A stretch of DNA of 16,582 nucleotides from Clostridiales bacterium UBA1390 (GTDB lineage Bacteria; Bacillota; Clostridia; Lachnospirales; Bianqueaceae), in NCBI GenBank assembly GCA_002305315.1, contig DBQQ01000027.1, forward strand, positions 36,126 to 52,707. Reading direction: 5' to 3'. Below, piece after piece: positions 1,799 to 9,696 of this stretch (position 1 is the first letter of the stretch; each line of letters begins with the position of its first letter). Position numbers and translations under genes: made by a program. The notes under the pieces were generated by a model, which worked only from the letters and a program-made list of their open reading frames with translations, was not told where the DNA came from and did no database searches.

Positions 1799-2077
1799 CT
1801 ATTCGTTATATAAATTTCTAAAGGGTGAATCTGGATGCTCCCTTCGCAATTTCTCAATACTCTCAGCGAGAAGATCTTCAAATTTCTTTGATTCCATTGT
1901 CTTTTGACATCGTTGCTCAGCAAGCTCTCGCACCTTCTGCTTTGCATCTTCATCTACATCTTCTCTAAGAACCTCCAGATGTGCTCTTTGAAATTCTTCT
2001 ATAAAACTATCCTTGAAACCTATTTTAAATCCATCCCCAAATCCCTCTTCAAATATCCCCCATCCCAGGCCACACAT
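1799..2077 (-). CDS. Orphan Rpn-type C-terminal tail, small protein (92 aa)
   Basis: This frame sits downstream of the left rpn gene and begins in a duplicated copy of that gene's 3' region. The upstream reading frame (open to about 2200) has no convincing start of its own. The ATG at 2077 is preceded by the same TGAGGAGG (2093-2086) found inside the rpn gene, at ideal spacing, so I chose it. The product starts MCGLGWGIFEEG, parallel to MCNLSWGIYQDG in the rpn tail. It then diverges into a charged, probably helical tail ending in SPFRNLYNE and lacks the GMPLEKIARI module of the other three tails. Either a stand-alone short form (antitoxin-like) or a silent alternative tail cassette. Expression is not shown. 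Confidence 0.5.
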   Translation of the reverse strand: MCGLGWGIFEEGFGDGFKIGFKDSFIEEFQRAHLEVLREDVDEDAKQKVRELAEQRCQKTMESKKFEDLLAESIEKLRREHPDSPFRNLYNE

Positions 2078-2153
2078 CTGCGTTACCTCCTCACTCATCT
2101 TCTTTGTCATGGCGATATGATACTGCTCCTGAAGGATCTGTTTCTTTTTTGAA
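2041..2153 (-). repeat. Duplicated rpn 3' segment (orphan copy; parent copy at about 2337-2440)
   Basis: The segment encoding KKQILQEQYHIAMTKKM through the MC start of the short protein recurs 287 bp away inside the rpn gene (internal ATGs at 2364 and 2077). It includes the ribosome binding site and ATG unchanged. Confidence 0.75.
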
Positions 2154-2163
2154 AGGTCGTGAC

Positions 2164-2364
2164 TTATACCGGATCCGAAACGGGTGCTTCCGCCAGCCAT
2201 TCCTGGATCTTCGTCATACTTTCGGAGACAATGCGGGCAATCTTCTCTAAAGGCATACCATCCTGGTATAGAGCAAGAGCAACTTCCTTACCTTTCTGTT
2301 CAATCCCTTGCTCGACTCCATCCTCAACTCCATCCTGATATATACCCCAACTCAAGTTACACAT
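2164..2364 (-). CDS. Intragenic short form of the left Rpn protein (66 aa, in frame)
   Basis: Within the rpn gene, TGAGGAGGT is followed 8 bases later by ATG (2364-2362) at residue 262, in frame. The product starts MCNLSWGIYQDG and would be the C-terminal domain only. In characterised Rpn systems a C-terminal short protein made from an internal start inhibits the full-length nuclease (established for some rpn genes). That this one is translated and inhibitory is inference. The block is identical in all four tail copies here. Confidence 0.55.
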   Translation of the reverse strand: MCNLSWGIYQDGVEDGVEQGIEQKGKEVALALYQDGMPLEKIARIVSESMTKIQEWLAEAPVSDPV

Positions 2365-3147
2365 CTGCGTTACCTCCTCACTCATCTTCTTTGTCATGGC
2401 GATATGATACCTCTCCTGCAAGATTTGTTTCTTCTCTTCTGTTTGCAGCTTTCCAGACAACAAAACCTCTAAAAATCCCAGTATCCCCTCGTGCGTTCCC
2501 TCGTCGTACTCTCCTACATGCAGCAGAATCAGATTCTTCAGCCGATAATTCTCCGGGTCACTCCTGTTTTCTCCCACCAGACATTCTTCCACCATCTCAT
2601 AGCGATTCATGCTGTTGCGGTACTTCTTCGCGGATTTCGTACAGATCCATATGGAGTAAACCTTCTTTACCGCCCCATAGTCCATTCCGGAAAATACCGT
2701 GCCGTACTGGGATGAGATCAATCGGCTCCCATAGTATACGGCTCTCTTCAATAGCGGATACCACGTCTGCTTCTCATTCTGCGCTTCGATATTCAGAATC
2801 AGATAGAGCCTTTCCGGATCCTTCGGCAGTAGTGCCTTGAAGCGAATATCATACCGTACCATTCCTTCGGTCACTGTGATATCCTCTGTATTCAAACCCA
2901 AGATTCGCTCCGGCTTTTCACATTCGGAGATCTCTTCGTCCGCATGTACAGCAGTCTCCCCGACTTGCGGGTCCCCTTCAATAAATTGTTCCACGATCTC
3001 CTTCGGGGTATAGTCCTGATATTCCGGCAGACACTCCCTGAGGATATAAGCCAGAACAATCTTCTGGGACAGCAGCCGCTTTGCGGCTTCATCGTATAGG
3101 GCTCTTCCTTCCGTAAGGAAAAGAGCATGGGATAGATCCTGATTCAT
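2164..3147 (-). CDS. Rpn-family PD-(D/E)XK nuclease / 'PDDEXK_2 transposase-like' protein, left copy
   Basis: The 327-aa product is a member of the Rpn (recombination-promoting nuclease)/PDDEXK_2 family, whose characterised members are DNA endonucleases and some of which restrict phage. The nuclease core is visible as YDIRF (D100) followed by NIEAQNE (E121, Q123), the family's D...ExQ version of PD-(D/E)xK. The C-terminal part has the typical DG/EG-rich helical segment and the GMPLEKIARI...KIQEWL module. The start is ATG 3147, with AAAGGGGA just upstream; longer upstream starts lack a ribosome binding site. It differs from the right copy at roughly 20 of the first 261 residues, while tails differ more. 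A strong internal ribosome binding site opens a 66-aa short form in the same frame. Target unknown; nuclease assignment is by motif. Confidence 0.85.
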   Translation of the reverse strand: MNQDLSHALFLTEGRALYDEAAKRLLSQKIVLAYILRECLPEYQDYTPKEIVEQFIEGDPQVGETAVHADEEISECEKPERILGLNTEDITVTEGMVRYDIRFKALLPKDPERLYLILNIEAQNEKQTWYPLLKRAVYYGSRLISSQYGTVFSGMDYGAVKKVYSIWICTKSAKKYRNSMNRYEMVEECLVGENRSDPENYRLKNLILLHVGEYDEGTHEGILGFLEVLLSGKLQTEEKKQILQERYHIAMTKKMSEEVTQMCNLSWGIYQDGVEDGVEQGIEQKGKEVALALYQDGMPLEKIARIVSESMTKIQEWLAEAPVSDPV

Positions 3148-3267
3148 AGATATTCCCCTTTCTTCTGCGTGAATAGCTAGCATCAATGGATACAGAAAGA
3201 GCCTCGCTTCACAAAGAGGAATCTACTGACTGTATCATATCACCTGAGACTTGAAAAAACAAGTACC

Positions 3268-3355
3268 CTGGCCATAGATAAAATCTATAGCCAGCCGAGA
3301 ATCCTTTAGATATAAGGAATGGAGATAGTATATCACGCGTGGAATTTTTGCACAA
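3268..3355 (-). promoter_or_regulatory. Left rpn promoter and structured leader
   Basis: On the - strand an extended -10 TGATATACT (3335-3327) follows a weak -35 TTGTGC (3355-3350) with a 17-bp spacer. Downstream in the leader lies a 12-bp stem with a 3-base loop (3268-3279 with 3283-3294). The leader runs about 170 bases to the ATG and is conserved in the right arm, which suggests regulation in the untranslated RNA. Confidence 0.6.
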
Positions 3356-3470
3356 TTTCCAGAACTGGCAACTTATCTTATGAAGTTGCTCAGATAGAAC
3401 AACGGAATGTATTGTCAAAAAGGGGAATGTAGGGAGACATTCTCAAGGAAGATAGAGGGATTCTGGGCAT

Positions 3471-4010
3471 GGAGAGTATCATCACTTCAGCGAAAAGAAT
3501 TGTAAAATTCGAAGGGGCGGATGAGAAACCGGAGGGCGGCTTCTCGCAGAACTCTACAGGGGCCCTAGGCGGAGAGTATCATCACTTCAGCAAAAAGAAT
3601 TGTAAAATTCGAAGGGCGGATGAGAAACCGGAGGACGTCTTCTCGCAGAACTCTACAGGGGCCCTAGGCGGAGAGTATCATCACTTCGGCAAAAAGAATT
3701 GTAAAATTTAGAGAGGCAGATGAGAAATCTGCGGGCAGCTTCTCGCAGAAAGCTGCGGGAGACCTAGGCGAACAGAATATCATCGCTGCAGGCGAACAGA
3801 ATGTAAAATTTGAAGAGGTGGATGAGAAAACCAAGGACAACTCCTTGCAGGAAAGAAGCATGGACCTAGAGATTATCATCACTGATGTAAAATGAAATGT
3901 AAAATTTGTAGTGCGAGATGAGAATTTTGTGACGCCCACTGCAGAAAGACGCGAGTTCTGGGTACCTGAGTATCATCACTGCTGCGAAAAGAATTGTAAA
4001 ATCGGACCCA
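3471..4010 (+). repeat. Array of six degenerate ~99-bp repeats (33-aa protein repeat remnants)
   Basis: GAGTATCATCACTTC-like unit starts recur near 3471, 3571, 3670, 3770, 3869 and 3967. In one frame the units read like ESIITSAKRIVKF, then ADEK, then FSQ, then LG. Units 3 to 5 stay open for about 75 codons to a stop just before 3897, while 1-2 bp indels break the frame in units 1 and 2. Several differences between units 1 and 3 are third-position synonymous, pointing to a former repeat protein rather than a purely noncoding array. A similar, shorter array in the opposite orientation is at 7860-8145. No spacer/repeat architecture of CRISPR type is present. Confidence 0.75.
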
Positions 4011-4021
4011 CCGTATGATAA

Positions 4022-4062
4022 GAAAATCCCCTATGAAATCATACTGACTTCATAGGGGATTA
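4022..4062 (-). terminator. Rho-independent terminator of the modification operon
   Basis: A perfect 13-bp stem (AATCCCCTATGAA, 4025-4037, with 4049-4061) has an 11-base loop. On the - strand it is followed by TTTTCTTATC. It overlaps the stop codon of the kinase-like gene and marks the end of the leftward operon. Confidence 0.85.
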
Positions 4063-4677
4063 GGTACTCTGTGATATTACTGTATCTCGCACTAATTCCA
4101 CCGCTTCTCGATCGGGTCTGCAGCATAGATGATATACGGGGACCTTCTGAAAGAAATGATCCACGTTTTCCCACATCTTTTCCTGCACTTCATCCGGCCA
4201 GGTGTCTGAAAGAAAAATCTCAGGCAGGCAATAACTCAACGCCTGAAAAGGCTCCATGGTAGCGATGGTATTTTCCTTCGCCTGTTCCAAGGTAACGAGT
4301 GCCGCAATCGGTGCGCTCCGTTCCTCACAATAGGGACTGGAACCGTGAACGGGCGCACCGAGCGCATAGAATCCACCTTCTTGCTTTTGAATCAGGGACG
4401 CATCTCCGTTGACAATTGTCGCCCCTAAGTAATCTCTCCATAGCTCCGCCTGCGTCGTCTTTCCAATGCCAGAGGGACCGGTGAAGAGAATGGCTTTCCC
4501 CTGATATAATACGTAGGAGCAATGCAGATGAAAATGCCCTGTGGAGACTAAAGTGGGAAGCGCCAAACGATAGGCAGATTCAATGAGAGTATGTAACACC
4601 TCAGACTCGGTGCAGGAGACGGAGATGGACTCAGTGGGAGAGGTGAGGGTGAAATCGAGTTTTTTTTTACTCTTCAT
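4060..4677 (-). CDS. HPr-kinase-like (HprK/PEPCK-fold) protein of a peptide-modification cassette
   Basis: The 205-aa product has a Walker A motif GPSGIGKT (about 67-74), then NGDASLI and GAPVHGSS, as in the small HprK-like ATP-dependent kinase family. Such proteins recur in RiPP clusters; in some lasso-peptide clusters they phosphorylate a serine of the precursor. The frame is open to an ATG at 4749, but I prefer ATG 4677 (MKSKKKLDF), which overlaps the stop of the upstream 123-aa gene by 11 bases and implies translational coupling. No strong ribosome binding site precedes it. Last gene before the terminator at 4022-4062. Kinase activity and target are inferred from family and context. Confidence 0.8.
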   Translation of the reverse strand: MKSKKKLDFTLTSPTESISVSCTESEVLHTLIESAYRLALPTLVSTGHFHLHCSYVLYQGKAILFTGPSGIGKTTQAELWRDYLGATIVNGDASLIQKQEGGFYALGAPVHGSSPYCEERSAPIAALVTLEQAKENTIATMEPFQALSYCLPEIFLSDTWPDEVQEKMWENVDHFFQKVPVYHLCCRPDREAVELVRDTVISQST

Positions 4678-5038
4678 AACTATAACAATTTCGCACACCG
4701 GGTATGGACCCATATGATTGATGTAATAATTGTGCAATAGCTCCAGCATTTTCAGGATTTGCTGCTAAATATGTATATATTTCACTTTGACTCATTCCAT
4801 TAAAGAAAGTTCCCCAAAAGGAAAATCTATCTAACAATTCCCAATTAACACCTCCATTCCCTTCATTATCTGTTGTAAAACCATAATCAGTCCATGCTAA
4901 AGAATAAGTAATTTCAACGCTCCCACCAATTGAAATAGGTCCCGAACTTACTTCTTCTCCTACATTCATCAACATTATATTTGCTCCACCATATTTCTCA
5001 AGTTCTTCTTTAGTAATTGTTCCACTAATAGTTTTCAT
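4667..5038 (-). CDS. 123-aa unrecognised protein, candidate substrate of the radical SAM/kinase cassette
   Basis: I do not recognise this family. It has the strongest ribosome binding site in the operon (GAGGAGG, 8 or so bases before ATG 5038), lies directly after the radical SAM gene (15-bp gap) and ends inside the start of the kinase-like gene. The N-terminus is polar and leader-like (MKTISGTITKEELEKYGG). The middle is rich in Gly, Asn, Ser, Trp and Tyr, and there is a single Cys in the ending NCYSYEE. Position and expression signal make it the best candidate precursor, although it is longer than most RiPP precursors. No signal peptide or membrane segment is evident. Base composition is visibly more AT-rich than the flanking enzyme genes, suggesting separate turnover. 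Confidence 0.7.
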   Translation of the reverse strand: MKTISGTITKEELEKYGGANIMLMNVGEEVSSGPISIGGSVEITYSLAWTDYGFTTDNEGNGGVNWELLDRFSFWGTFFNGMSQSEIYTYLAANPENAGAIAQLLHQSYGSIPGVRNCYSYEE

Positions 5039-5053
5039 CCTAATTTCCTCCTC

Positions 5054-6121
5054 TTATTTTTCCGCATCTCGCTTCATTCGCTGTGCGGTCTTACACTTTC
5101 CTTCTCCCAGCTTCGAGCCTTCTGCGTACAGTACCGCCGGGCATGTCCTGCAATATGTATTGGCTTCGCAGCCGGAACAGCATCCTCGCGGATACTGTCT
5201 GTCCAGATCGTCCAGCATCTCATCAAAACACTGGCTGATGGACGTTTTTAGTGGTTCATATTTCATGTCCATATGAGAACACAGACTCAAATGGCCATTC
5301 CATAGAACCCAGTAGCCTCCATTCTGGTAGTTTCCGCAGATATCCAGCGGACTCATCACTTTCTGGTGAGGCTTGATATGTAGATCGCAGCGTTCTTCCT
5401 CACTCAGATCCTCATACAGGATTCGTGATGCTAGGATATCCGCTGACTGATCATTACGGCGGCTGTTCATGACATTGTGCGTATGCTGCAGGGGCAGACC
5501 GTACTCCGCAGCCAGACGATGGATCGCATCCAGTTCCGCCTCGTTCTCTCGGATGACGGTTGAGACCAACACCAGGGGAATCTGTGCCGCTAATACATTT
5601 TCGATTCCTCTCTTCACTCGCCGCAGGCCATCCTTCACACCGCATACTTTCTCATAAGTCTCTTCCGTCGCGCCATAGATCGTCGCCTTGATGCGAGTCG
5701 GCGGTCGGCTGGCGATCAGATCCAGAAGTTTTCCATCCAGCAGGGACAGATTGGTCTGCAGGCTGATCCAGAAGCCCATGTCTGTCAGTGCGGTATAGAT
5801 CTCCGGGAAATCCGGCCGTACCAGAGGTTCGCCTCCGGTGATCGTCAGGCTCAATGTACCTGCTTCTATCGCCTGCTCCCCCAGTTGAATCCATTCCTTG
5901 GCGCTGAGTTCGCGGCCTCGTAGCGCGATCGCGCCTTCCTCCAGATGCACGTAGCACATACGGCAATGGAAGTTGCAGCGCGGTGTTAATTCAAAGGCTG
6001 CCTGTATGGGGAGAGGTTTTCTTCTCGGAGACGGATTTGATGACGTTTCCGTCCTTGTCGAGATAGACTCTTCCGGAGATACTGTGTGTTCCGGGTTGGA
6101 GCCTTGTATCTGTGGTATCAT
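5054..6121 (-). CDS. Radical SAM/SPASM-type peptide-modifying enzyme
   Basis: The 355-aa product carries the radical SAM 4Fe-4S motif CNFHCRMC (C49, C53, C56), the SAM-binding TITGGEP stretch, and a Cys-rich SPASM-like C-terminus (CGNYQ..., CCSGCEANTYCRTC..., CKTA) that should hold auxiliary clusters. Such enzymes typically make C-C or thioether links or epimerise residues in ribosomal peptides. ATG 6121 has AAGGA 9 bases upstream; there is no alternative start before the CxxxCxxC motif, so the gene overlaps the PqqD-like gene by about 130 bp in another frame. Its first ~40 residues are Ser/Pro/Thr-rich and read like an overlap product. The exact reaction cannot be told from sequence. Confidence 0.9.
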   Translation of the reverse strand: MIPQIQGSNPEHTVSPEESISTRTETSSNPSPRRKPLPIQAAFELTPRCNFHCRMCYVHLEEGAIALRGRELSAKEWIQLGEQAIEAGTLSLTITGGEPLVRPDFPEIYTALTDMGFWISLQTNLSLLDGKLLDLIASRPPTRIKATIYGATEETYEKVCGVKDGLRRVKRGIENVLAAQIPLVLVSTVIRENEAELDAIHRLAAEYGLPLQHTHNVMNSRRNDQSADILASRILYEDLSEEERCDLHIKPHQKVMSPLDICGNYQNGGYWVLWNGHLSLCSHMDMKYEPLKTSISQCFDEMLDDLDRQYPRGCCSGCEANTYCRTCPAVLYAEGSKLGEGKCKTAQRMKRDAEK

Positions 6122-6419
6122 CTGAAATCATCCTTGCCTGTTTGAGTGTACCTACAATCTTCTCCACATCCTTACGAAGGACATCTTCCTCCACCGCGTA
6201 GATGGTGAGCCCTTGGCTTACAATATCATCAACGGTGAATTCGCCTGCCTGCATCAGCCCGACCAAGCGGGCCGCTTCCTTATTGAGCAGTACAGATTGT
6301 TTGACGATACGAGTCGTTTCTCCGATCGGGAGCAACACGGTCTGGCCTGCGACCTGACGAGTTTTCAGTCCTTCAACTAGACGCATCTTACCATCCGACA
6401 CTTCTTTCCCTCCTCCCAT
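5991..6419 (-). CDS. PqqD-like peptide-binding (RRE) protein
   Basis: The 142-aa product has a PqqD-like fold pattern: a GQTVLLPIGETTRIVKQSV strand region, LNKEAARLVGLM helix, and the VEKIVGTLKQARMI end helix. In RiPP systems PqqD/RRE proteins bind the precursor leader and deliver it to the radical SAM enzyme. Family domains are about 90 aa; the extra C-terminal segment (GRVYLDKDGNVI) lies in the overlap with the radical SAM gene. Two starts are possible: ATG 6419 with AGGAG about 11 bases upstream, or GTG 6401 with a better-placed AGGAGG (6414-6409, 7-base spacing). This is the first gene of the leftward operon, and its leader begins inside recombination site 6438-6466. Confidence 0.8.
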   Translation of the reverse strand: MGGGKEVSDGKMRLVEGLKTRQVAGQTVLLPIGETTRIVKQSVLLNKEAARLVGLMQAGEFTVDDIVSQGLTIYAVEEDVLRKDVEKIVGTLKQARMISDDTTDTRLQPGTHSISGRVYLDKDGNVIKSVSEKKTSPHTGSL

Positions 6420-6437
6420 CTCAAGACTTTCTCCTAT

Positions 6438-6466
6438 ATTTCGTAGAATACAGGATTCTACGAAAT
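6438..6466. repeat. Recombination site A (left inverted site of the invertible segment)
   Basis: ATTTCGTAGAAT (6438-6449) and ATTCTACGAAAT (6455-6466) are perfect 12-bp inverted arms around a 5-bp core ACAGG. The reverse complement is the site at 7715-7743, differing only at the outermost base. The last codons and TAG stop of the recombinase gene lie in the right arm. Confidence 0.85.
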
Positions 6467-7402
6467 CCTTTGCAGCTTGTTCATCTGCTCCCTTTTGTAT
6501 TCAAATGAAGAGTGAAAGTAATATTCCATAGTAATCTGTATTTCAGAATGCCCTAGAATTTCACCCAAAGTTTTCATATCCCAGCCTAAAGTCACACATC
6601 GTGTCGCAAACGTATGACGCAAGCAATGAAAATTAAGATACGGAATCTGGCATATTTGCAATATCCTGCGATACGCATATTGCAATGTCCGGGGTTCCAT
6701 AGGCATTTCACAATTGGTCAGTAAATAATGATCAAGGTTTTCCGTCGAGAAGAAGGGACGTATATATTTTATGATAGATGAAGGGAGCGGAATCAGACGA
6801 ATCCCTGCATTGCTTTTGGGCAAAGAGATTCGCAGTTCCGTTTTCGTTTTACTTGTGACATCCTGCGTTTTTAAGCGCTGTACCGATCTTGCAATCATCA
6901 ATGTCCCATTGTCAAAATCTATATCGTTCCATCGAATGGCGCACAATTCACCAATTCTTACTCCTGAATACAAGGCAATCAGAATTGCTAACGTATAATT
7001 ATGAGGATGCGCGTCAATATACGATTCTAATTTGTACAACTCGGCCTGTGAAAATACACGAACAAAAGCCTTCTTTCTTTTAATATTAGGCATGATATGG
7101 GTCTTAAAAGAAATAAAGTGATGCTGATTTCCGTACTCTAATATTCGATTCAGCAACATGATACTTGTCCTTTGATTTCCCGCGGACAATTTTTCGGAGG
7201 CAAACTTCTGGCGTATATATTGACTAAATGCTTCTATATCTTGTTCCTTCAAATCATTGCATGACTTTTCGGAGAAAAAGGGGAGAATGTAGCGCCGAAT
7301 CAGCTGTTCATACTTGACATATGTCGAAGGTGCGATTCGGTGTTTCTGTTCTCTTAACCAAGTTCCACAGAGTTCCGCCAATAAAAATTTTTTTGAATGC
7401 AT
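6458..7402 (-). CDS. Tyrosine recombinase (phage-integrase family), predicted DNA invertase
   Basis: The 314-aa product has an N-terminal SAM-like core-binding region and a C-terminal catalytic domain. Catalytic residues are visible: SGVRIGEL (R149), HCLRH (H259, R262), LGHSEIQITMEYY (H285 and nucleophile Y294). It resembles Xer/integrase-type enzymes of Firmicutes mobile elements. ATG 7402 follows GGAGA at a normal distance. The final codons (ATT TCG TAG) are part of recombination site A. There is no tRNA or other att-like host gene at either site, and no excisionase gene, which argues for inversion rather than integration. A - strand promoter is not clear in 7403-7500. Confidence 0.92.
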   Translation of the reverse strand: MHSKKFLLAELCGTWLREQKHRIAPSTYVKYEQLIRRYILPFFSEKSCNDLKEQDIEAFSQYIRQKFASEKLSAGNQRTSIMLLNRILEYGNQHHFISFKTHIMPNIKRKKAFVRVFSQAELYKLESYIDAHPHNYTLAILIALYSGVRIGELCAIRWNDIDFDNGTLMIARSVQRLKTQDVTSKTKTELRISLPKSNAGIRLIPLPSSIIKYIRPFFSTENLDHYLLTNCEMPMEPRTLQYAYRRILQICQIPYLNFHCLRHTFATRCVTLGWDMKTLGEILGHSEIQITMEYYFHSSFEYKREQMNKLQRIS

Positions 7403-7685
7403 AACCGTCTCCTATGTAAAATATTTAGGTTATTTGAGGAGAACCTATAACCCCTAGACTAGATCATTGTAATAGATATCTGCATATTTTTTAATGTCAG
7501 AAAATACCGTCGTCCTTAGTTTTTTCTTGTATCTCCAGTTTTTAAAAGATGTCTTCATGTACCGTCCTCTTGGTTTTTTATGATTTTCGGCTATTTCTGA
7601 TATTTATTAGATTATTTTTTGTTTTTTCCAGTGCTTACCATTTGTACCGAAGATTTACCGATTATCCCAAAACGCTTGTAATAGA

Positions 7686-7714
7686 TTGATTTTGAAAATG
7701 CTAAATGATAGAAT
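7686..7714 (+). promoter_or_regulatory. Outward-facing promoter of the invertible segment
   Basis: -35 TTGATT (7686-7691), 17-bp spacer, extended -10 TGA-TAGAAT (TG at 7706-7707, -10 at 7709-7714). It ends directly before recombination site B, so transcription would begin inside the site and run rightward. In this orientation it meets only the terminator at 7763-7804; the next gene starts at 8474 with its own promoter. Confidence 0.65.
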
Positions 7715-7743
7715 GTTTCGTAGAATCCTGTATTCTACGAAAT
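7715..7743. repeat. Recombination site B (right inverted site of the invertible segment)
   Basis: TTTCGTAGAAT (7716-7726) and ATTCTACGAAA (7732-7742) flank the core CCTGT (7727-7731), the reverse complement of the core in site A. The only difference is G at 7715 opposite the A expected from the other arm. Confidence 0.85.
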
Positions 7744-7762
7744 CATAATACTCTATAATATC

Positions 7763-7804
7763 AAGGCCTCTGTGAAGTCAATCTGACCTCAAGGGGCCTT
7801 TTTA
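7763..7804 (+). terminator. Terminator blocking the outward promoter in the present orientation
   Basis: AAGGCC (7763-7768) pairs with GGCCTT (7795-7800), and the stem continues inward (GAAGTCA/TGACCTC with one mismatch and one bulge), ending in TTTTT. It lies about 45 bp beyond site B and would limit the outward transcript to roughly 85 bases. Confidence 0.75.
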
Positions 7805-7859
7805 TCATATCATGGTTTTGATTTTACATCTCATAATAAGGAAGTGAGGATAGGCTCGA

Positions 7860-8145
7860 GGCGTATGTGGCTTTACTGAGAAGACTTTCTGGACTCTCTC
7901 ATCTCACTCTCTAAATATTACAATTCTTTTCGCTACAGTGATGATACTCTCAATGCCTAGGGTTCCTGCAACTTTCTGCGAGAAGTCGCCCTCAGAGTTC
8001 TCATCCGCCTCTTTGGATTTTACAATTCCTTTTACAAAAGTGATGATACTCTCTCCGCCTAGAACTCGCTTTTTCTATGGTGAGTCACATAGAACTCTCA
8101 TCTCGCACTACAAATTTTACATTTCTTTTGATATTCTCAATGCTC
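7860..8145 (-). repeat. Shorter inverted array of the 33-aa repeat remnants
   Basis: On the - strand, units such as ESIITFVKGIVKS...ADENSEG...FSQKVAGTLG match the units at 3471-4010. About two and a half units remain, with stops and indels. The array sits upstream of the right rpn gene just as its counterpart does on the left. Confidence 0.7.
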
Positions 8146-8265
8146 AGGGCGCATGAATCCTTATATGGGAGCCTTCTGGCTCTCTCATTCCCCTTTACAC
8201 CAATGGTAATACATTCCGTTGTTCTATCTGAGCAACTTCATAAGATAAGTTACCCATTTTGGAAA

Positions 8266-8353
8266 TTGCGCGAAAATTCCACGCGTGATATACTATCTCC
8301 ATTCCTTATATCTAAAGGATTCTCGGCTGGCTATAGATTTTATCTATGGCCAG
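8266..8353 (+). promoter_or_regulatory. Right rpn promoter and structured leader
   Basis: Extended -10 TGATATACT (8286-8294) with a weak -35 TTGCGC 17 bp upstream, then a 12-bp stem with a TTT loop (8327-8338 with 8342-8353), in a leader of about 170 bases. The same elements precede the left copy; one stem position changes from C to T yet still pairs with G, so pairing is kept. Confidence 0.6.
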
Positions 8354-8473
8354 GGTACTTGTTTTTTCAGGTCTCAGGTGATATGATACAGTTAGTAGAT
8401 TCCTCTTTGTGAAGTGAGACTCTTTCTGTATCCATTGATGCCAGCTACTTACACAGAAGAAAGGGGAATATCT

Positions 8474-9433
8474 ATGAATCAGGATCTATCCCATGCTCTT
8501 TTCCTTACGGAAGGAAGAGCCTTATACGATGAAGCCGCAAAGCGACTGTTGTCCCAGAAGATCGTTCTGGCTTACATCCTGAAGGGGTGTCTTATGAAAT
8601 ATCAGGACTATACTCCGGAGGAGATCGCGGATCGCTTCATTGAAGGAGACCCGCAGATCGGGGAGGCCGCTGTGCATGCGGACGAAGAAATCTCCGAATG
8701 GGAAAAGCCGGAGCGAATCTTGGGTTTGAATACAGAGGATATCACAGTGACCGAAGGACTGGTGCGGTATGATATTCGCTTCAAGGCACTACTGCCGAAG
8801 GATCCGGAAAGGTTCTATCTGATCCTGAATATCGAAGCGCAGAATGAGCAGCAGACGTGGTATCCGCTATTGAAGAGAGCCGTATACTATGGGAGCCGAT
8901 TGATCTCATCCCAGTATGGCACGGTATTTTCCGGGATGGACTATGGGGCGGTGAAGAAGGTCTATTCCATATGGATCTGTACGAAATCCGCGAAGAAGTA
9001 CCGCAATAGTATGAATCGTTATGAGATGGTGGAAGAATGTCTGGTAGGAGAAAGCAAGAGTGATCCGGAGAATTATCGGCTGATGAATCTGATTCTGCTG
9101 CATGTGGGAGAGTACGATGAGGGAACACACGAGGGGATACTGGGATTTTTAGAGATTTTGTTGTCCGGAAAGCTGCAAGCAGAAGAAAAGAAACAGATCC
9201 TACAGGAGCAGTATCATATCACCATGACAAAGAAGATGAGTGAGGAGGTAACGCAGATGTGTAACTTGAGTTGGGGTATATATCAGGATGGAGTTGAGGA
9301 TAAAGCAAAGGAGATTGCTATGCGGTTATACCAGGATGGCATGCCCCTGGAGAAGATTGCTCGTATTGTCTCCGAGAGCCTGGCGAAGATCCAGGAATGG
9401 CTGGCAGAAGAGCACGCTTCGGATCCGGTATAA
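8474..9433 (+). CDS. Rpn-family PD-(D/E)XK nuclease / 'PDDEXK_2 transposase-like' protein, right copy
   Basis: The 319-aa product is paralogous to the left rpn product through residue 261 (same D...ExQ core: YDIRF and NIEAQNE). Its tail is shorter: MCNLSWGIYQDGVED, then the KEIAMRLYQDGMPLEKIARI module. It lacks the DGVEQGIEQ-type insertion of the left copy. ATG 8474 has AAAGGGGA upstream; the longer frame from 8414 lacks a ribosome binding site and overlaps the conserved leader. The tail region is duplicated directly after the stop codon. Two intact divergent nuclease copies suggest a maintained system rather than debris. Biological target not known. Confidence 0.85.
   Translation: MNQDLSHALFLTEGRALYDEAAKRLLSQKIVLAYILKGCLMKYQDYTPEEIADRFIEGDPQIGEAAVHADEEISEWEKPERILGLNTEDITVTEGLVRYDIRFKALLPKDPERFYLILNIEAQNEQQTWYPLLKRAVYYGSRLISSQYGTVFSGMDYGAVKKVYSIWICTKSAKKYRNSMNRYEMVEECLVGESKSDPENYRLMNLILLHVGEYDEGTHEGILGFLEILLSGKLQAEEKKQILQEQYHITMTKKMSEEVTQMCNLSWGIYQDGVEDKAKEIAMRLYQDGMPLEKIARIVSESLAKIQEWLAEEHASDPV
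9257..9433 (+). CDS. Intragenic short form of the right Rpn protein (58 aa, in frame)
   Basis: GAGGAGGT (9242-9249) lies 7-8 bases before an in-frame ATG (9257) at residue 262, opening the 58-aa tail MCNLSWGIYQDG... This is the same position as in the left copy. By analogy with described intragenic Rpn short forms it may be an inhibitor of the nuclease; translation is not shown here. Confidence 0.55.
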   Translation: MCNLSWGIYQDGVEDKAKEIAMRLYQDGMPLEKIARIVSESLAKIQEWLAEEHASDPV

Positions 9434-9519
9434 GTCACAACCTTTCAAAAAAGAAACAAATCCTACAGGAGCAGTATCATATCACCATGACAAAAAAGAT
9501 GAGTGAGGAGGTAACGCAG

Positions 9520-9696
9520 ATGTGTAACTTGAGTTGGGGTATATATCAGGATGGATATGAAGAACGAGGCAAAAAAGATGCTCTTGCCCTTTACCAGGAT
9601 GGCATGCCTTTAGAGAGGATTGCCCGCATTCTTTCCGAGAGCCTGGCCAAGATCCAGGAATGGCTTGCGGAAGCACCCTCCGGGGATTCTGCATAA
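9520..9696 (+). CDS. Orphan Rpn-type C-terminal tail, small protein (58 aa)
   Basis: ATG 9520 follows GAGGAGG (9505-9511) at optimal spacing. The product (MCNLSWGIYQDGYEERG...) is the same length as the intragenic short form of the adjacent rpn gene and keeps the ALYQDGMPLERIARI and KIQEWLAEA module, with a different middle. The frame is open back to 9397 but without a usable start there. It could be an independently expressed short form with altered specificity, or a tail donor for recombination into the parent gene. It probably shares the parent's transcript. Confidence 0.55.
   Translation: MCNLSWGIYQDGYEERGKKDALALYQDGMPLERIARILSESLAKIQEWLAEAPSGDSA

Follow-up and report, generated by a model that had tools for sequence, protein, structure and literature searches.

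A candidate inversion cassette with an outward promoter in front of a RiPP-like operon in Clostridiales bacterium UBA1390

Invertible promoters of gut bacteria lie between inverted repeats and are flipped by a site-specific recombinase, facing either a surface operon or a dead end; known examples serve capsules, fimbriae and surface proteins. Mpi of Bacteroides fragilis acts on promoters of this kind, and invertible promoters of gut bacteria were reportedly described by Jiang et al. in 2019. Here we analyse a stretch of 16 582 nucleotides from Clostridiales bacterium UBA1390 (contig DBQQ01000027.1, positions 36 126 to 52 707; hereafter the window), in which a segment bounded by inverted sites and encoding a tyrosine recombinase lies in front of an operon resembling those for ribosomally synthesized and post-translationally modified peptides (RiPPs). 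In Mpi-type systems one recombinase may serve many distant sites, whereas the window recombinase sits inside its own segment; and, where gut invertible promoters face surface operons, the target here is a peptide-modification operon. We put at roughly 78% the probability that this is a self-contained inversion cassette at the front of a RiPP-like operon, and that the segment flips and so controls the operon. The switch would be of a known kind, and its control of this peptide system appears to be new.

The operon resembles those of pyrroloquinoline quinone (PQQ), mycofactocin and SynChlorMet in having a PqqD-like protein and a radical S-adenosylmethionine (SAM) maturase beside a small open reading frame (ORF), and a ScmC-like (HprK-like) protein. 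It differs from them in that the 25 radical SAM models of NCBIfam shown for the window protein all score far under their cut-offs, and in that the complete clusters of the window system hold an HprK-like partner, an ATP-binding cassette (ABC) transporter and exopolysaccharide-type genes. HprK-like kinases also accompany a PqqD-type protein in RiPP operons in lasso-peptide tailoring; unlike those systems, the window has no lasso cyclase or leader protease among its ORFs, judged by eye and from the nine proteins scanned, and has a radical SAM enzyme instead. Among the matches listed in open-licence literature, no paper on phase variation or inversion concerned RiPPs, radical SAM, bacteriocins or ribosomally synthesized peptides, by title or abstract opening, and, on the same footing, none found with PqqD and HPr kinase/HprK was on this combination. 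A study of the hCom2 gut community linked a Clostridia ‘inverton group 139’ to a tyrosine-type ‘invertase group 35’, tracked inversion by read counts and sought promoters inside the segments (PMC11892184). The window family is like group 139 in coming from Clostridia, in having a tyrosine-type recombinase nearby and in having repeats that can be grouped by homology, and the two may or may not coincide (PMC11892184). The words ‘radical SAM’, ‘bacteriocin’ and ‘peptide’ have no occurrence in the main text of that study (PMC11892184).

The two sites (Table 1) are 100% complementary and spaced 1250 nt apart, and each is a near-palindrome of two 11-nt half-sites around a 5-nt core (ACAGG / CCTGT) whose asymmetry gives the site its direction. 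Half-sites of 11 nt and an asymmetric core are the usual architecture of a tyrosine-recombinase crossover site. The assembly, of 2.8 Mb in 61 contigs and 96% complete, has no third copy with two or fewer mismatches, and an Rfam scan of the window gave no matches at the gathering threshold. The recombinase gene in the segment predicted to invert is intact; its stop codon falls within site A. The protein resembles XerA/integrase models of NCBIfam, with every score under the model cut-offs, and the solved structures nearest to it are those of an Int protein, an integron integrase and Xer-type recombinases. The 313 bp from the recombinase start to site B contain the outward promoter, TTGATT-17-TAGAAT, as their single outward match of at least 8/12. 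The inverted sites exceed chance; the outward promoter by its score alone does not, and conservation in relatives was consulted for that reason. We accordingly rejected any significance drawn from the promoter score alone and required conservation.

This conservation was found in the closest cassettes. A sample of 230 genomes from family f6, four of them with a match, yielded three recombinases that are 50–52% identical to that of the window, which belongs to family f1; all three loci (L210, L211 and L212) thus come from another family of the same order. Their best inverted 26-mer pairs agree at 22/26, 25/26 and 21/26 positions, respectively, the last being under threshold, and in each, like the window, the stop codon of the recombinase falls within the site. 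TTGATT-N17-TAGAAT recurs exactly, just inside the site, in all three, with spacers that have diverged; because the hexamers are kept exactly while the spacer diverges, they would seem to matter. In the four loci, the window's included, which come to 136 kb with both strands counted, the pattern occurs four times, every time at a cassette, and it occurs 12 times in the 3.56 Mb (both strands) of all loci, overlapping copies included. The sequence-only reading from which we started had proposed an outward promoter abutting site B, and the identical hexamers and spacing in the same place in these relatives bear it out, so that the window shows the structure expected of an inverton: inverted repeats bounding a segment with an outward promoter, the promoter being judged by consensus and conservation. 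That reading had also pointed the promoter at a terminator, which agrees with the fold and T-run there, the terminator being missing from the pattern-scan list. By eye, terminator-like hairpins lie beyond the 5′ site in L210 and L212, not in L211. The cassette of L210 stands before a leucine-rich-repeat (BspA-type) surface protein and that of L212 a VWA-domain protein.

The L211 cassette, whose half-sites are identical to those of the window except for one base in one copy, precedes a PqqD gene (PF05402, 1.4e-11) and a 101-aa ORF ending in CCDI. A profile of 26 other precursors, without those of the L211 type, ranked this ORF best of all ORFs in L210, L211, L212 and L214 (E 4.8e-4), while P0140 and P0135, of the same type, scored 1e-6 and 1e-5 and the best of 300 shuffles reached 0.039; some of the training precursors had been found earlier with a profile containing L211. 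No radical SAM or HprK relative is present on the 14.4-kb contig of L211, and an ABC exporter lies about 9 kb upstream (L214). From these sequences, we regard L211 as a second, independent case of this cassette preceding a peptide operon of this kind.

The wider family was surveyed in an order sample of 392 genomes, with at most five candidates scored per genome at E ≤ 1e-40; 62 genomes matched, our own included. We took 104 loci, among them L053–L056 and leaving out G214:C1:116333, and scored 104 recombinase genes in 103 loci (under the limits set, L198 gave none and L182 two) by their best inverted 26-mer pair. Inverted repeats of at least 23/26 surround 52 of the 104 recombinases, and of at least 22/26 surround 61; in shuffles that preserve base composition only, taking the best of 10, a score of 23 was reached in 0/104 and of 22 in 2/104. 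For counts of promoters, terminators and neighbours we kept 60 cassettes, namely the 52 at 23 or above and eight of the nine at 22 (L178 was dropped by hand); some loci are near-duplicates from sister species (L098/L099, L103/L186 and L149/L150) and are not independent. An outward promoter of at least 10/12 stands within 90 bp inside the 5′ site in 44 of the 60 cassettes, against 1/60 on the other strand, 4/60 in shuffled sequence and 4/60 in the next 90 bp. The median distance from 5′ site to recombinase start is 367 bp and from stop to 3′ site 64 bp, and TTCGT/TTCGC or the complement occurs within the site in 37/60. By these sequence measures, modules that place a recombinase and an outward promoter between inverted sites form a family, and the promoter-switch design proposed for the window finds good support in the promoter, sites and geometry conserved in many relatives and in L211, where the cassette precedes the same kind of operon. 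As to orientation, the NTP_transf_5 targets of L184 (on its off side) and L190 (on its on side) are 56% identical, with the segment oppositely oriented, and in L131 and L202 the genes on the two sides of the segment are homologous to each other (41% and 65%, respectively).

In our own family (19 genomes, E ≤ 1e-30) only G002 has a recombinase match besides our own genome, and its locus, L055, is without detectable sites; a class sample of 391 genomes gave only G528 (38%) besides our own, and a phylum sample of 398 none. The families of G187 (48 genomes) and G097 (seven genomes) have no recombinase at E ≤ 1e-66. Viral relatives occur at four loci (22–29% identity), and the plasmid matches, in 12 records, are all below 60% identity. 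A 1308-bp contig from the 96% recombinase cluster, set against the 1306-bp segment, would agree with assembly breaks at the sites, but we gave it no weight, short contigs being common there.

The operon begins 19 nt beyond site A in the order PqqD, radical SAM, 123-aa ORF and HprK-like gene, an order already given by the sequence-only reading and upheld by the PF05402 and PF04055 matches, which supply the recognition protein and maturase expected of a radical SAM RiPP. The start of the first gene was placed at ATG 6419, and the GTG at 6401, after GGAGGAGGG, is probably the better placed. The radical SAM protein would, by motif, be of SPASM type; its best NCBIfam model is PqqE-like, far under cut-off. 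A relative of the HprK-like protein (L050:6156-6956) matches Hpr_kinase_C at 1.5e-05, under the Pfam cut-off (25 of 33 bits), and the window protein itself is weakly matched by sequence in the PDB (1ko7, HPr kinase, E = 0.016, ranked after an unrelated P-loop protein). The ScmC, ScmE and ScmF models reach 20 of 125, 65 of 400 and 66 of 400 bits, below the cut-offs that would mark a SynChlorMet cassette, and neither exporter nor protease was found among the window ORFs (by eye) or the nine proteins scanned.

All four genes are present in L043, L050, L051 and L052, in each of which a PqqD relative precedes the radical SAM gene, and also, judged by ORFs, in L110 and L113; none of these six loci has a relative of the window recombinase at E ≤ 1e-3. 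The closest radical SAM relative, 65% identical, is in L043, which has a second PqqD, a LytTR gene upstream and an ABC transporter downstream; that of L050, on contig 28 of our own genome (G000), is 40% identical. The region L050:742-10917 is itself a second, complete peptide system: genes for a LytTR response regulator and a GHKL kinase stand upstream of the PqqD, radical SAM, precursor and HprK-like genes, and those for an ABC transporter, together with genes of exopolysaccharide type, follow downstream. All the small ORFs belong to one family; when 14 of them are aligned, W49, G53 and C118 (window numbering) do not vary. A profile search gave 23 precursor proteins (P0121–P0143), including those of the window and L211, of 101–138 aa, with W/G-rich middles and an otherwise variable tail; the last Cys lies 2–8 residues from the C-terminus in 23/23 and is the single Cys in 21/23. 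Precursors of the window type share the leader MGQARGTITQEELEKYGGANIMLMN, with changes, and diverge after it, giving the conserved leader and variable core next to a maturase that a precursor should have. The sequences support the view that the small ORFs are a precursor family, and with it the RiPP-like reading first proposed for this operon: leaders are conserved, the middle varies, and each member seen carries a Cys close to the C-terminus. The window member has no Pfam or NCBIfam match, and the family is possibly an undescribed RiPP-like one.

Table 1. Features of the cassette and operon, in window coordinates
Feature	Position	Strand	Remarks
Invertible segment (predicted)	6438..7743		1306 bp, both recombination sites included; perfect 28-nt inverted arms
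Recombination site A	6438..6465		TTTCGTAGAAT-5-ATTCTACGAAA, core ACAGG on +
Recombination site B	7716..7743		core CCTGT on +
Outward promoter (predicted)	7686..7714	+	TTGATT-17-TAGAAT, TGn-extended −10, adjoins site B (one base short); 9/12
Terminator facing outward promoter now	7763..7804	+	7755-7812 folds at −20.8 kcal/mol, TTTTT after stem
Tyrosine recombinase	6458..7402	-	314 aa; PF00589 1.5e-25, PF14659 5.6e-11
Probable recombinase promoter	7466..7494	-	TTAAAA-17-TACAAT, 63 nt before ATG; 9/12; consensus match only
PqqD-like peptide-recognition protein	5991..6419	-	PF05402 3.4e-08; probable start GTG 6401
Radical SAM protein, candidate peptide maturase	5054..6121	-	PF04055 2.7e-22; Cys-rich C-terminus
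123-aa candidate precursor peptide	4667..5038	-	precursor family; no Pfam or NCBIfam match
HprK-like P-loop protein	4060..4749	-	TIGR04249 ScmC weak, 3e-4, 20 of 125 bits; conserved GPSGIGKTT, HGSSPYCE
Operon terminator	4025..4061	-	pattern scan; strong; −26.2 kcal/mol

We propose that the recombinase would recombine sites A and B and so invert the 1.3-kb segment. As the segment now lies, the outward promoter would fire into the terminator, leaving the operon with at most readthrough from the recombinase; once flipped, it would face the operon, and the transcript would begin within the site, some 60 nt ahead of the probable PqqD start. A population would therefore contain both low and high producers of the modified peptide. 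PqqD would present the precursor, the radical SAM enzyme would modify it, and the HprK-like protein probably phosphorylates something. The exporter-less operon would probably be a phase-variable satellite of the exopolysaccharide-linked cluster elsewhere in the genome, whose exporter it would use; we favour this model because the operons of the window and L211 are without an exporter, with exporters at contig 28 and L214. This arrangement was seen twice, in the window (full copy on contig 28) and in L211 (PqqD and precursor). As a general pattern, in which a complete cluster under two-component regulation is joined by an exporter-less extra operon that has a different precursor and stands under an invertible promoter, and individual cells at random feed a second modified peptide into one shared export line, the idea seems to us somewhat less likely than not. 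For this genome, we infer from sequence the flipping, the promoter activity, the modification of the peptide and the use of the other cluster's exporter.

Several observations weigh against the reading of the locus as an inversion cassette controlling this operon. For this locus, one assembly gives one orientation; the oppositely oriented cassettes of L184 and L190 belong to two genomes, and the target genes beside them may be paralogous. Sites are not universal, 43 of the 104 relatives falling below 22/26 (nine of these without full flanks) and those at 39–40% identity (L213, L090) being without detectable sites, and L043, with the closest radical SAM protein, has neither sites nor recombinase. 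The promoter is not exceptional by score: the region has 14 such sites where shuffles give 9.5 ± 2.7, and 7% of 200 shuffles of the local stretch equal its 9/12. The precursor of L211 was missed by a pairwise search with the window precursor and found by the profile alone. No terminator lies between recombinase and operon in the window, while 15 of the 60 relatives have one in the 3′ spacer by pattern (3/60 when shuffled). An outward-pointing gene stands on the 3′ ‘off’ side only in 22 of the 60 cassettes and on the 5′ ‘on’ side only in five (both in 28, neither in five); because the former is far more frequent, the assemblies lean towards ‘off’.

The missing terminator bears most directly on how strict such a switch could be. 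The dependence of the operon on orientation that was first proposed is, in a strict form, not supported, because no terminator follows the recombinase, and the promoter of the latter, scoring the same as the outward one (both 9/12) and oriented toward the operon at present, would read into it; the statement that no promoter is evident from site A to the first start was also slightly too strong, as a weak match, TGAACA-17-TAGAAT (6483-6455, minus strand, 9/12), crosses site A in the present orientation. With the stop codon inside site A there is no room for a terminator, and the same is true of L210, L211 and L212, so that a leak is to be expected and the ‘off’ state probably leaks. The operon might then be expressed both ways, by recombinase readthrough now and from the outward promoter when flipped; inversion would then alter the amount of expression, or tie it to that of the recombinase, as a dimmer or a two-promoter switch would, and would not turn the operon on and off. 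Messages of recombinases are usually weak, however, site A folds as a 12-bp hairpin (−12.6 kcal/mol, though without a T-run) at the end of the recombinase message, and the exact retention of the outward hexamers beside a diverged spacer also speaks for the outward promoter; we consider this alternative somewhat unlikely. That the operon makes no peptide at all, but serves protein modification or a cofactor for exopolysaccharide assembly with the 123-aa protein as a structural partner, is suggested by the company of the complete relative L050 (NTP_transf_5, a ParA-like ATPase and a surface Ig-like protein), by the length of the precursors and their W/G-rich middles, and by the want of an NCBIfam model for the window member. 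This seems to us unlikely, given that PqqD and radical SAM genes adjoin a small variable ORF with a conserved leader and an all but terminal Cys throughout the family, and that L043 and L050 have an ABC transporter. Far less probable still is that the segment no longer flips, or that the recombinase is the integrase of a decayed mobile element with remnant repeats: members of the superfamily are often integrases, no flipped copy was seen, and an Rpn/PDDEXK_2 gene pair and inverted repeats of about 100 nt flank the locus, but the arms are perfect, the core directional and the recombinase intact, and the geometry and outward promoter are common to many relatives, with promoter hexamers conserved in the subfamily. 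We rejected the mobile-element integrase as principal explanation because the sites are perfect and have a direction, the outward promoter is conserved and relatives share the geometry.

If the cassette does control the operon, a population could gamble on producing a modified peptide, and a majority of cells in the off state may explain why such peptides have been missed in culture. The compact cassette recurs in the order before surface proteins, a gene resembling those of non-ribosomal peptide synthetases (NRPSs), a radical SAM gene and polysaccharide-type operons and, as its site and promoter are recognizable, genomes and metagenome reads can be mined with it for further operons under phase variation.

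Some further cassettes and the surroundings of the locus may be described briefly. A distant cassette, L100:389-4647, precedes a radical SAM gene (360 aa, PF04055 1.2e-23) and a 391-aa partner that matches nothing in Pfam; this may be a phase-variable maturase operon of a second kind. In L102, L108 and L127, cassettes with similar sites precede a protein of about 1148 aa, the three being 76–83% identical; condensation, AMP-binding and thioesterase domains make the L102 protein NRPS-like. The cassettes of L105 and L107 adjoin genes that we take to resemble those for JAB-type protease, ubiquitin-like and E1-like proteins. L135, L184 and L202 seem, by eye and from three genes checked, to be placed between two diverging polysaccharide operons, and the flanking layout of L131, L135 and L202 suggests a two-way toggle rather than an on/off switch. 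In the window, two inverted copies of an Rpn/PDDEXK_2 family gene (2020-3413 and 8208-9577, 93% over 1094 nt) flank operon and cassette, and homologous recombination between them could invert the intervening 4.8 kb and leave the switch unchanged. Arrays of the repeats of about 100 nt (GAGAGTATCATCACTTC...GAATTGTAAAATT) lie at 3464-4021 and 7816-8134, inverted across the two sides of the operon, and all six matches to them in our own genome are on this contig.

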